From contig CAJXTG010000011.1 in NCBI GenBank assembly GCA_913060655.1, positions 1 to 48,313 on the forward strand: a stretch of DNA of 48,313 nucleotides, read 5' to 3'. Below are positions 15,311 through 19,278 of the stretch, one piece after another. Position numbers and translations under genes: made by a program. The stretch's first letter is position 1. Every line of letters begins with the position of its first letter. The notes beneath the pieces are model-generated. The model made no database searches. It was not told the DNA's origin and was given only the letters and a program-made list of their open reading frames with translations. The stretch is from an uncultured Nitriliruptoraceae bacterium. GTDB lineage: Bacteria > Actinomycetota > Nitriliruptoria > Nitriliruptorales > Nitriliruptoraceae.

Positions 15311-16273
15311 GTGACCGGACGGCCGGTGACCGCGACGGCCGCCCAGGCGCGGCTCGTCGACGAGGTCCTCGCCTGGGGGGCGGAGCGTCCGGCGCCGCCG
15401 GCGGACCTGTCCGAGCGGCTGCTCGCCCGGATGGGCCCGGCGATCGCCGACTGGCTGGCGGTCCGCGCGGCCGACCCCGCGCACGCCGAACGGCCCCTGC
15501 TGATCACCAAGACGCGGCTGTCGCGGCTCGTGTGCGACGGGCTGCAGCAGGACCCGGAGCCGTACGTGCACGGCTGGGCGAACGTCCGCGGCACCCTCGT
15601 GCACGCCGCGATCGAGGCGGACGTCGGCGGGGCCCGCGACGAGGACGCCGGCCGCGTCGTCGAGCACGCCTGGCACCGGCTCGCCACCGACCGGCCGGGC
15701 GACCCGCGGTCGGTCGGGGCCTGGCTCAACGCCCGTGACGCCGGTGAGCGGGACACGCTCGTCGCCGAGTCGACGACGCTGCTGGCCGGGTTCCGTGAGG
15801 TGTGGCCCGAGCTCACCGGCGCGCCGCTGCGGGTCGTCGCCGAGCGGCGGCTCGCCGTGATGCTCGGGGGACGCGCCGTGCGGCTGCAGGGCGTGCCCGA
15901 CCTGCTCGTGGAGAGCCCGGTCGACGACGGCCGGGCACGCCGGCTCATCATCGACCTGAAGACGGGCATGCCGCGCGGGCAGCGTGACCGCGACGAGCTG
16001 CGCTTCTACGCGCTGCTGGCGACCCTCGCCGGCGGCACGCCGTTCCGCTGGGCGACGCTGTACGTCACCGAGGGCCGTGTCGAGCAGGAGGACCTCGCGG
16101 AGCCGGTGCTGGCGACCGCCGCCGAGCGGGTCGCCGACGCCGTCCACCAGGCGGTGCGGCTCGCCGGTGACGCGGCCGCCGAGCGGCTGGCCGGAGGGCC
16201 GTGGTGCGCCGGCTGCCGTCGGCGCACCGCCTGCCCGGAGGCCGCCGCGGAGGACGTCGCGCACGCTGGCTAG
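15311..16273 (+). CDS. PD-(D/E)XK nuclease with 4Fe-4S 'iron staple' (AddB/Cas4/RecB-like)
   Basis: A 320-residue stand-alone nuclease domain. The catalytic set of the RecB/AddB/Cas4 group is visible: His98 in GTLVHAAIE, Asp197 in LQGVPDLLV, and Asp215-x-Lys217 in LIIDLKTG, followed by the QRDRDELRFYALL helix. Four cysteines are spaced as in AddB and Cas4: Cys75 (RLVCDG) far upstream, then Cys299-x2-Cys302-x5-Cys308 (WCAGCRRRTACPE). This predicts a 4Fe-4S cluster tying the two ends of the domain together. The GTG start at 15311 follows the gltB stop by 10 bases. No helicase or CRISPR genes are near; a HIRAN-domain gene follows after 10 bases. Probable role: DNA end processing or repair (inference). 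Confidence 0.85.
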   Translation: MTGRPVTATAAQARLVDEVLAWGAERPAPPADLSERLLARMGPAIADWLAVRAADPAHAERPLLITKTRLSRLVCDGLQQDPEPYVHGWANVRGTLVHAAIEADVGGARDEDAGRVVEHAWHRLATDRPGDPRSVGAWLNARDAGERDTLVAESTTLLAGFREVWPELTGAPLRVVAERRLAVMLGGRAVRLQGVPDLLVESPVDDGRARRLIIDLKTGMPRGQRDRDELRFYALLATLAGGTPFRWATLYVTEGRVEQEDLAEPVLATAAERVADAVHQAVRLAGDAAAERLAGGPWCAGCRRRTACPEAAAEDVAHAG

Positions 16274-16276
16274 CGT
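16271..16276 (+). promoter_or_regulatory. -10 element of the HIRAN gene, embedded in the nuclease stop codon
   Basis: TAGCGT starts with the TAG stop of the nuclease gene and lies exactly 7 bases before the HIRAN ATG. This predicts a leaderless transcript independent of the upstream genes. Confidence 0.55.
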
Positions 16277-16283
16277 GCCGGCC

Positions 16284-16724
16284 ATGCGTCCGTCCCTGCC
16301 CGAGTTCCGCACGCCGGTCCGTGGCTACGCGTTCGCCGCCGTCCCGCCGCCCCGCCGTGCGGTGCTCGACGCCGGGACGCCCGTCGCGCTGCTGCGCGAG
16401 CCGGAGAACCCGGCGGACCCGCTGGCGGTGGGCGTCTGGCTCGTGGAGGACGGCCGCCCGAGCTGGCGGCTCGGCTACCTCGATCGCACCGTCGCCTCCC
16501 GCATCGCCCCGCGGCTCGACGGTGGCGTGGCGGTCGACGCCGTGCTCGACGGATGGGTGGAGGAGCCGGACGGTCGCTGGCGTCGGCCACTGCTCCACGT
16601 ACGACCCGCGGTCGATGGCGGCGGGGCGCCCGACGTCGCCGCGGAGGGGCCGCCGGTCAGCCGTCCGACGCTGCGGCGGCAACCGCCGGGGGTGCGTCGA
16701 CGGCGGGTGCGTCGGCGGGGTTGA
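16284..16724 (+). CDS. Stand-alone HIRAN domain protein
   Basis: A 146-residue protein whose residues 12-108 form a HIRAN domain, known from HLTF/Rad5 helicases, where it binds 3' ends of single-stranded DNA. Signatures are VALLREPENPADPLAVGVWL and WRLGYLDRTVASRIAPRLDGG, the usual hydrophobic-NP-D-A and GYL-x4-A pattern. The last 20 residues are Arg-rich, and their DNA overlaps the 3' end of the convergent VanW gene by 68 bases. It follows the iron-staple nuclease by 10 bases and has a leaderless-type promoter. A role with the nuclease at DNA ends is a plausible inference; stand-alone HIRAN function is not established. Confidence 0.82.
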   Translation: MRPSLPEFRTPVRGYAFAAVPPPRRAVLDAGTPVALLREPENPADPLAVGVWLVEDGRPSWRLGYLDRTVASRIAPRLDGGVAVDAVLDGWVEEPDGRWRRPLLHVRPAVDGGGAPDVAAEGPPVSRPTLRRQPPGVRRRRVRRRG

Positions 16725-18510
16725 CCTCGACGATGCGCCGCTGCGGGGCGTACACGGTCCGCCACCGCTCCACCGGCGGCGCCGGACCGGCGGCCGTGGG
16801 GATGCGGGAGCGTCGCACGGTGACCGTGAACCCGTCGCCGCCGGGTTGGACGACCCGTTCCGTCCCCGGCGGCACGTCCTCGGCGACGCGCACGAGCGTG
16901 TCGAACGGCTGCGGTGCGGACCGCTCGGACTGCTCCGCGCGCACCGCCGCCCAGCGGGGGCGGCCGAACAGCTCGACGGTGATCGACGTCGGCGTCGTCG
17001 CGGTGCGGAGCAGCAGCCAGCCGGCGGTGTCGTTGGTGATCGCGACGTCGAGCCGCGGGTAGAACAGGGTCGCCTCACGTCCGGCCGGGTAGCGCGGGAT
17101 GAAGAAGGAGTGGGGCTGCCACGCCTCGAGGGGCACGCCGGCGAAGAACGCGGCGTTGAGCAGCGTCGTCCCGACCTGCGACACGCCGCCGCCGCAGGTG
17201 TCGACGAGCTCGCCACGGACGATCGTGCCGGCCGGCAGGTACCCGTCGGCGCACGTGCGCGGACCGCTCCGACGGTTCACCGACAGCGTCGCACCCGGCG
17301 CCACCCAGGAGCGGTCGAGCACGGTGGCGAGCCGGCGGATGTTGTCGGTCCGCGCCCCGCCCGCCCCGTGGAAGGTCGTGAACGTGCCCAGCAGGTGCGT
17401 GGGCCGGCGCGGCCGCAGCGTGTCGGCGGTCGTCGCGGGCGTCACGACCAGCAGGTCGGCCTCCGCCCGTCGCTCGCCGGCCATCACCAGCTCGACCAGC
17501 TGCGCGGCCGTCCGGCGCGCGACCCACACGGTGCGTGTGACCTCCGGGACGACGCGGGCGTCGACCCGGACGGGGGAGAACGTCGTCGACCCGCCGCTGG
17601 TGAGCGCGGCCACGGGCGGACCGGTGTCGACGCGGGCCGGGGCGGGGGAGCGGTCGAAGGTCCGCGCCGCCGCCACCCCGAGCCGGGCGGCGAGCCGCTC
17701 GTGGTCGACGTGCAGCACCGGGTGCGACCCCATCCCGTCCGGTGCTGCCCGGACCTCGAGCAGGTCGCCGAGCACGTCGGTGGGGACGATGAGCCGACGG
17801 CCGTCGTGGTGCAGCACCCGCGGGGCCCGCAGCGCGTCGGCGACCCGGTCGGCGAGCCGTTCGATCGCCGCGAACGTCGACGGTGGCGGTGAGGTGGTCG
17901 CGGCGAGGACGGCCCGGTCACGTGCGGGGTCGAGGAGTGCGGCACGCAGCCGGGTCACGCTCCGTGCGGTGTCGACGCGGACCGCCCCATGAGGTCCGAC
18001 GACCGTCACGGAGCGTGCGGCCGGGTCGATGCGCAGGTCGCCGACGGACGGGTCGCGCTCGAGCGCTGCGGCGGTGTCCTCCACCCAGGCGGTCAGCGCC
18101 GAGGGGTCGACGGTGCCGACGGGCGTGAGGGCGACGTCGACGAACGGGGCCGCCAGCCGTTCGAGCAGCCCGCCGACGCCGCCTCGTCCGCGTTCGGCCG
18201 CCACCCGGACGGTCGCGTCGACGTCGAAGCGCAGCCCGACGTCCTCCGGGTCGAGCCGCACGCGTCGGCCGGGCGCGCTGACGGCGAGCGGGGTCCGTGC
18301 GGCGGTGGCGAGGGCGGGGGCGAGCCGGTCCGTCGCCTCCTCGACCGTCCGGCCGCCGAGGTCCACGCCCGCGACCACGGTGCCGGGGAGGATGCGACCC
18401 GCCTGTGCGGCCGTCAGTCCGACGAGGACCACCGCGAGGGTGAGCGTCGCTGCTGCCAGGGTCCCGGCGGCGACGGCGACGGCCGACGGCACACGGCTCA
18501 CGGGCGACAC
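16657..18510 (-). CDS. VanW family protein with peptidoglycan-binding and G5-like regions
   Basis: A 617-residue envelope protein: N-terminal transmembrane/signal segment (about 9-34), repeated YoaR-type peptidoglycan-binding-4 regions (about 45-360), a VanW domain (about 374-505, with LLGTFTTFHG, RTDNIRRL and DTCGGGVSQVGTTLLNAAF) and a C-terminal G5-like domain (about 530-600, VPPGTERVVQPGGDG). Such proteins sit outside the membrane and probably interact with the cell wall; the VanW activity itself is not established. The GTG at 18510-18508 is chosen, with TAGGAC 7 bases upstream; a second GTG at 18501 is possible. The low-complexity Pro/Ala/Val/Asp tail is antisense to the HIRAN Arg tail. 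Confidence 0.9.
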   Translation of the reverse strand: MSPVSRVPSAVAVAAGTLAAATLTLAVVLVGLTAAQAGRILPGTVVAGVDLGGRTVEEATDRLAPALATAARTPLAVSAPGRRVRLDPEDVGLRFDVDATVRVAAERGRGGVGGLLERLAAPFVDVALTPVGTVDPSALTAWVEDTAAALERDPSVGDLRIDPAARSVTVVGPHGAVRVDTARSVTRLRAALLDPARDRAVLAATTSPPPSTFAAIERLADRVADALRAPRVLHHDGRRLIVPTDVLGDLLEVRAAPDGMGSHPVLHVDHERLAARLGVAAARTFDRSPAPARVDTGPPVAALTSGGSTTFSPVRVDARVVPEVTRTVWVARRTAAQLVELVMAGERRAEADLLVVTPATTADTLRPRRPTHLLGTFTTFHGAGGARTDNIRRLATVLDRSWVAPGATLSVNRRSGPRTCADGYLPAGTIVRGELVDTCGGGVSQVGTTLLNAAFFAGVPLEAWQPHSFFIPRYPAGREATLFYPRLDVAITNDTAGWLLLRTATTPTSITVELFGRPRWAAVRAEQSERSAPQPFDTLVRVAEDVPPGTERVVQPGGDGFTVTVRRSRIPTAAGPAPPVERWRTVYAPQRRIVEVNPADAPAVDAPPAVAAAASDG

Positions 18511-18555
18511 CGTCCAGGTCCTACGGCGGGGGAGCGGCAGCGTACTCGCGCGGCC

Positions 18556-18561
18556 TACGCT
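18556..18561 (+). promoter_or_regulatory. -10 element of the anti-sigma-like gene
   Basis: TACGCT lies 6 bases before the ATG at 18568, which indicates a leaderless mRNA. No Shine-Dalgarno is visible. Confidence 0.55.
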
Positions 18562-18567
18562 GCCCGT

Positions 18568-19278
18568 ATGGACCAGCACACCCGCTTCGAGCAGCTCGCG
18601 CTGGCGCACGTGCTCGGCGGGCTCGACCGGGGCGACGCCGACGACTTCCGGTCGCACCTGCGCGCCTGCGCGTCGTGCCGGGCACGGGTCGCGGAGCTGC
18701 GCGGCATCTCCTCCACGCTCGACGCCGCGGCACGTGAGGAGCGTCGGCGGGCCGCCGAGGAACCGCCGCCGCGACGTGACCCGGCGCCGGCGCCCCGACC
18801 GCGGGGGCCCGGCCGGCTGGCCGTCGTGCTCGTCACCGTCGTGCTCGTCACCGCGGTGGGGTTCTGGAACCTGCACCTGCGCACGAGCGCCGACACCTAC
18901 CAAGGGGTCGCCGAGGACCGTGCGGCGATCCTGTCCGACCTCGCGCGGGGGGAGCTGGTCACCGCCGACGCGCTCACGCCGGTCGCCGCCCGCGTCGCCG
19001 TCGCAGGGCCTCGCCTCGCCGTCGTCATCGCCGACGGCGGGCCGCTGGGCTCCGACGAGCGGCTGGTCGGCTGGCTGCTGCCCCTCGGGTCGACGATCGA
19101 CGAGGCGGTGGTGCTCGCCGTCGGGCCGCGCGCGACGACGGAGATCGCCGTCCGCATGGACCGCGGCGAGGCGCGTGAGCTGGTCGTCACCCGCGAGCAG
19201 GGGCTGCTGTCGTCGTCGGGTCCGCGCGGGGACGAGCTGTTCCGCGTCGCGCTACCTTCGCAGGACCCGGGCACGTAG
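18568..19278 (+). CDS. Zinc-finger anti-sigma-like membrane protein (RskA-like)
   Basis: A 236-residue single-pass membrane protein. The cytosolic N-terminus carries a zinc-binding HC2 motif (His30, Cys34, Cys37 in HLRACASC) as in ZAS anti-sigma factors, a Pro/Arg-rich linker (61-83), one transmembrane helix (about 84-101) and an extracytoplasmic domain of about 130 residues resembling anti-sigma-K (RskA) C-terminal domains. No sigma-factor gene lies beside it, so its partner must be elsewhere. Its promoter looks leaderless. Its TAG stop (19276-19278) falls inside the tRNA-Val gene, so the last codons overlap the tRNA 5' end by 10 bases. Confidence 0.83.
   Translation: MDQHTRFEQLALAHVLGGLDRGDADDFRSHLRACASCRARVAELRGISSTLDAAAREERRRAAEEPPPRRDPAPAPRPRGPGRLAVVLVTVVLVTAVGFWNLHLRTSADTYQGVAEDRAAILSDLARGELVTADALTPVAARVAVAGPRLAVVIADGGPLGSDERLVGWLLPLGSTIDEAVVLAVGPRATTEIAVRMDRGEARELVVTREQGLLSSSGPRGDELFRVALPSQDPGT
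19253..19258 (+). promoter_or_regulatory. -10 element of tRNA-Val
   Basis: TACCTT lies 10 bases before the mature tRNA 5' end, within the last codons of the anti-sigma-like gene. Transcription would start very close to the mature end. Confidence 0.5.

Follow-up and report, generated by a model that had tools for sequence, protein, structure and literature searches.

Does a gene for a stand-alone nuclease that is followed directly by a gene for a stand-alone HIRAN protein form a functional unit with it, and for what purpose? The question is raised by two co-oriented genes in a window of 48,313 nucleotides (the whole stretch of DNA analyzed) from an uncultured member of the family Nitriliruptoraceae, whose genome of 1.67 Mb is 96.6% complete. 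In a preliminary description the two genes were interpreted as a minimal repair or defense unit, composed of an iron-sulfur nuclease and a free subunit recognizing DNA ends. As a whole this interpretation is partly supported by the analysis presented here; the minimal catalytic unit is unproven.

The first gene (15311-16273, forward strand) has a GTG start and encodes a protein of 320 residues that was recognized in a profile search by Pfam PDDEXK_1 (PF12705; E 1.8e-16, 61.3 bits, cut-off 22). All residues listed in the preliminary description were located at the positions given there. Judged from its sequence, the protein has the catalytic set of the PD-(D/E)XK class, consisting of His98 in motif I (15602-15604), Asp197 in motif II (15899-15901) and Asp215-x-Lys217 in motif III (15953-15961). 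The codons of Cys75 (15533-15535) and of Cys299-x2-Cys302-x5-Cys308 (16205-16234), on the same forward strand, give the cysteine pattern of the AddB/Cas4-type nucleases, with Cys75 as the first residue of a putative 4Fe-4S set. Cys75 is kept across the orthologs, the exceptions being the degenerate nucleases of the genera g11 and g13. The AF2 model of the nuclease has a pLDDT of 90.9, and the best PDB folds found for it with Foldseek were those of AdnA, ACE1 (Cas4-family), Dna2 and AddB; a single-sequence search of the PDB gave no useful match. The protein is not a Cas4 by the model TIGR00372 (15.6 bits, cut-off 65), and no cas genes (cas1/cas2) were recognized around it. Near the pair no helicase, no Cas gene and no typical CRISPR array were seen, in agreement with the earlier observation. 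As regards a possible orthology to Rv2119 of Mycobacterium tuberculosis, two better PDDEXK_1 matches were found elsewhere in the window's own genome.

The second gene (16284-16724, forward strand) begins with ATG ten bases after the nuclease stop codon and encodes, as had been described, a HIRAN protein of 146 residues. It was matched by the Pfam HIRAN profile (PF08797) with E 1.1e-8 and 35.2 bits (cut-off 24.7), its AF2 model is confident for the HIRAN core, and the model is closest to the HIRAN domain of HLTF (4s0n, Foldseek E 9.4e-6); profile score and fold agree in the assignment. N42, P43 and D45 are invariant in the HIRAN alignment. In HLTF, Tyr72 and Tyr93 stack on the bound dinucleotide (PMC4666394), a pocket that is a feature of HLTF and is not shared by every HIRAN domain. 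Both aligned positions are non-aromatic in the window's protein, that of Tyr93 being Ala44, and binding of 3' ends in the manner of HLTF should not be assumed.

The 3' end of the HIRAN gene overlaps by 68 bases (16657-16724) that of a convergent VanW-family gene (16657-18657, reverse strand), a conserved member of the neighborhood for which no functional link is claimed. Behind a variable linker the HIRAN protein ends in a tail (residues 130-146, LRRQPPGVRRRRVRRRG; 16671-16721, forward strand) whose PPGV-RRRR pattern is conserved in the alignment of the family's HIRAN proteins. The tail and linker region is predicted to be disordered. The tail is retained as well in HIRAN genes that do not run into the VanW gene, so that it is not an effect of the overlap; it is a candidate short motif for binding of DNA or of a partner.

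Conserved adjacency of the two genes in actinobacterial genomes had been proposed as a check on the pair, and adjacency limited to the window's genome as a ground for rejecting it. Nuclease and HIRAN were found adjacent and co-oriented in 24 genomes of Nitriliruptoraceae from nine genera, so that the arrangement is not confined to this genome. Four further genomes of the family have the pairing broken only by contig ends: G012, G026 and G028 carry the nuclease match at the end of one contig and the HIRAN match at the end of another, and G032 carries a HIRAN match at a contig end and no nuclease match. Five genomes of the family yielded neither gene, and G005 and G017 have a nuclease of another clade without a paired HIRAN gene. 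In G005, a HIRAN domain starts a 977-residue SNF2-type helicase (L183:5120-8050), an arrangement like that of Rad5/HLTF. Among 296 sampled genomes of the phylum strong orthologs of the nuclease are common, and none of those outside the Nitriliruptoraceae was found beside a HIRAN gene. In the genome sequences compared, the pairing is specific to this family; it resides on the chromosome and is inherited vertically throughout the clade.

The pair persists while the gene upstream of the nuclease varies: the window's genus has gltB there, g9 has korAB, and most others have a gene for a DsbA-like protein. In g9, g11, g12 and g13 the stop codon of the nuclease and the start codon of HIRAN overlap by four bases (ATGA or GTGA). 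Intervening genes were found in G010 (VapBC-like) and G011 (a gene on the opposite strand). Conservation of the neighborhood extends to the unrelated VanW gene, so that mere adjacency argues only weakly for a functional link.

The nuclease orthologs of other families in the class are located in neighborhoods with LigD or of the type Ku-FxsA-(RsgA)-nuclease-HAD ... UvrD (L082-L090, L099, L179), which suggests a link to end joining there. The window's genus (G000-G003), with reduced genomes of 1.1-1.7 Mb, has no Ku gene; many larger relatives have Ku. A link to NHEJ as the general role was rejected, as the window's genus is without Ku and the phylum loci outside the class have mixed metabolic neighbors.

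The nuclease orthologs were compared by a tree and a survey of the catalytic and cysteine residues (n=59). Nucleases paired with HIRAN fall into a single clade (SH-aLRT 99); those without HIRAN, the ones of G005 and G017 among them, make up the other. The complete residue set is intact in all unpaired orthologs with the exception of Asp215, which is Glu in L158. In a subclade of eight paired nucleases (SH-aLRT 89) the His is gone and, in most members, the Lys too; the g11 and g13 members also lack all four cysteines, and Asp197 is lost in G012. Nucleases predicted to be catalytically dead are kept only beside HIRAN. Closely related degenerate genes, compared in pairs, have dN/dS values of 0.19 and 0.29, and intact pairs have 0.20-0.25; by this measure the degenerate genes are not decaying and are under purifying selection beside HIRAN. 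Since they are not decaying, the degenerate protein is likely a functional non-cutting partner, which would argue for a binding role in the partnership. Of the proposed combination of a nuclease with an end-recognition subunit, the conserved pair stands, and its description as a catalytic unit is weakened by a subclade that keeps a nuclease predicted to be dead and by the absence of the two HLTF tyrosines.

The HIRAN gene has a predicted promoter of the PafBC/RecA-NDp type (16255-16276, forward strand), made up of the upstream element CGTCG (16255-16259), 11 bases and the hexamer TAGCGT (16271-16276). The hexamer starts on the TAG stop codon of the nuclease gene, and the HIRAN ATG follows seven bases past it, a distance consistent with a leaderless transcript. 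The aligned upstream regions of the HIRAN genes have the common form TGTCR-N11-YAnnnT, then 6-8 bases (6-7 in most cases) and the start codon, in which the hexamer (TAnnnT or CAnnnT) lies exactly 16 bases on from a TGTCRCA-like element. This element precedes HIRAN at fixed spacing in 20 of 23 genomes; the other three all belong to g11 and all show the ATGA coupling. The leaderless-type promoter noticed earlier at the stop of the nuclease gene is genuine insofar as it is conserved. Its register is that of the published mycobacterial RecA-independent damage promoter, with the consensus tTGTCRgtg-8 nt-TAnnnT (PMC5656591), and family-wide the HIRAN genes combine TGTCR and TAnnnT in the 16-base register characteristic of PafBC/RecA-NDp promoters.

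The window's own site, with CGTCG in place of TGTCR, scores weakly against the PWM: its 5.2 bits place it at rank 19 of 96,546 positions, and at rank 2 of 9,309 when only positions with a correctly spaced start codon are counted. Orthologous sites score 5.3 bits in G001, 11.7 bits in G002 and 15.6 bits in G003, where the HIRAN start sits further downstream of the element. In the window's own genome the case is built on conserved position and spacing; the site is one of five genome-wide pattern matches in the 1.67 Mb.

A strict pattern gave 31 matches in four larger genomes of the family versus 3 for the reversed control. Its targets include HIRAN, uvrB, sbcD, DUF222 repeats and a gene whose product resembles AddB by inspection and has no Pfam match. 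A relaxed pattern gave 24 matches in the window's genus versus 6 reversed and 7 mis-spaced, the negative control being the promoter pattern mis-spaced by one base; among the targets are HIRAN, RmuC, nucleases judged RecB-like by inspection and the unnamed protein whose gene follows dnaG. Because the motif first came to light upstream of HIRAN, the HIRAN counts are partly circular and the nuclease counts are not. The nuclease gene was not used in deriving the motif and served as an independent test: in the combined set of loci the motif stands 5-9 bases before the start at 12 of 59 nuclease loci versus 10 of 700 other genes (Fisher 6e-9, a value that overstates independence because the loci are related), and four wrong spacings placed it before the nuclease gene in 0 of 59. 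Outside the Nitriliruptoraceae, where the orthologs in Actinomycetota stand alone, the element often precedes the nuclease gene itself, and several of the sites outside the class read TGTCGGTG or TGTCAGTG, which is the mycobacterial form.

The regulator PafBC is present in the window's own genome, as this genome carries dop-pup-pafA-pafB-pafC-tatA-tatC, in which pafA is separated from tatA/tatC by two neighboring genes with WYL domains. Models confirmed pafA and the WYL domains, and the other members of the Pup-proteasome locus were assigned by order and inspection. PafBC is activated by single-stranded DNA (PMC11804915). No description of HIRAN as a PafBC/RecA-NDp target was found in the literature searched.

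Among the clearest damage-type promoters in the seven Nitriliruptoraceae genomes looked at is that of a conserved protein of 260-303 residues with no Pfam or NCBIfam match (L272:2888-3775, on C8 of the window's own genome, after dnaG; also L196, L198, L202, L234 and L235). The gene after dnaG is likely an unnamed damage-response gene. In G010, near-identical damage-type promoters precede several DUF222 (13E12-like) repeat genes (L207, L213, L217, L220, L221, L223), and one DUF222 gene is located between pafA and pafB (L269).

Starting from the observed gene identities, conservation, clade structure, promoter conservation and presence of PafBC, we consider it probable that the nuclease and HIRAN form an end-processing pair of the DNA-damage response with HIRAN as the inducible partner. 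Counted in favor are the pairing in 24 genomes, the varied upstream neighbor, the four-base overlaps and the single nuclease clade. Counted against are the relatedness of the genomes, which are not independent, the VanW gene in the block, the unpaired nucleases of G005 and G017, the weak PWM site of the window and the missing aromatic equivalents of HLTF Tyr72 and Tyr93. Induction, DNA specificity, physical contact and division of labor are what we infer for such a pair, in the following steps. Single-stranded DNA formed at damage would activate PafBC, and RNA polymerase would be turned to the HIRAN promoter. Because HIRAN has a damage-type promoter of its own, it would be induced without the nuclease, of which the upstream transcript would maintain a basal supply. 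HIRAN may bind single-stranded ends or junctions and recruit, position or restrain the nuclease there, possibly via its conserved basic C-terminal tail, and trimming by the nuclease would make the end ready for recombination or for gap repair. The nuclease of one subclade would have turned into a non-cutting DNA-binding partner. Held more tentatively, at somewhat less than an even chance, is the specific view that HIRAN is the damage-inducible specificity or control subunit of a stand-alone iron-sulfur end nuclease, with an inducible promoter within the coding sequence of its partner and, in one lineage, a non-cutting complex that binds ends and contains a pseudo-nuclease.

The same data could be read as a conserved neighborhood only, in which two repair genes act independently and are neighbors by chance, in a family whose genomes rearrange slowly, HIRAN being one more member of the damage regulon. 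The block does include the unrelated VanW gene, HIRAN with its own promoter survives the VapBC-like insertion in G010 and the opposite-strand gene in G011, and the pairing was not found outside the Nitriliruptoraceae. However, independent action does not account well for four-base stop-start overlaps in four genera, for a pairing that coincides with one nuclease clade, or for predicted dead nucleases that are kept beside HIRAN only, and we regard it as rather unlikely. Leaderless TAnnnT promoters are numerous in high-GC actinobacteria, and some of the matches precede genes without a known repair role, as expected if the element were a general leaderless promoter of these genomes and not a DNA-damage one. 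This is distinctly unlikely given only 5 matches in the 1.67 Mb of the window's own genome, targets enriched in repair genes, wrong spacings that yield nothing for nuclease or HIRAN, and an upstream element and 16-base spacing that fit the published motif (PMC5656591).

HIRAN genes occur in some defense-associated clusters (PMC11706625), the nuclease resembles DruK in PADLOC at the superfamily level (E 4e-9), and its Foldseek matches include ACE1, an Argonaute-associated Cas4-family protein. A minimal anti-phage defense unit is nevertheless highly improbable: the PADLOC matches of HIRAN are weak (best E 0.014), neither known defense genes nor a defense-island context was found at the locus, no mobile or defense genes surround the pair, and a chromosomal pair with clade-wide vertical inheritance carries a predicted damage-regulon promoter. 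That promoter points to DNA repair rather than virus defense. Of the two roles first suggested, repair is thereby strengthened and defense is disfavored.

Free-standing bacterial HIRAN proteins have been described as uncharacterized (PMC11090510). With a nuclease partner that is conserved and a promoter assigned to a named damage response, they would gain a role that is concrete and testable. The damage-response pair would also add two new targets to the PafBC damage regulon, carry that regulon into Nitriliruptoria and further classes of actinobacteria, and offer, within one partnership, a graded natural set of nucleases running from active to dead.

The nuclease shares the catalytic set of His, Asp and Asp-x-Lys and the Cys plus Cys-x2-Cys-x5-Cys pattern with AddB, AdnA, Cas4-family, ACE1 and Dna2 nucleases, and its predicted fold matches those of AdnA, ACE1, Dna2 and AddB. 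Unlike the AddB/AdnA/Cas4 family it is a stand-alone protein of 320 residues without helicase or cas genes, and its sequence likeness to Cas4 models is weak and under the cut-off. The HIRAN protein resembles HLTF/Rad5 HIRAN and bacterial lp_0118 (3k2y) in fold and in the N-P-x-D motif. It is not fused to a SWI2/SNF2 helicase as in HLTF/Rad5, differs from HLTF in having Ala at the Tyr93 position and a non-aromatic residue at that of Tyr72, and differs from both HLTF and lp_0118 in its conserved PPGV-RRRR tail. The mycobacterial PafBC/RecA-NDp (P1) regulon is matched in promoter consensus and spacing, in the location of PafBC at the Pup-proteasome locus and in repair-gene targets; the window's site differs in its degenerate upstream element and in a hexamer that overlaps a stop codon. 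HIRAN-HipA-diDNase clusters, which combine HIRAN with a DEDD dinuclease and HipA in mobile islands of Gram-positive genomes (PMC11706625), are similar in that a HIRAN gene standing alone is the neighbor of a gene for a small DNase; in contrast to these, the pair has a nuclease of the PD-(D/E)XK class and keeps a stable place on the chromosome.
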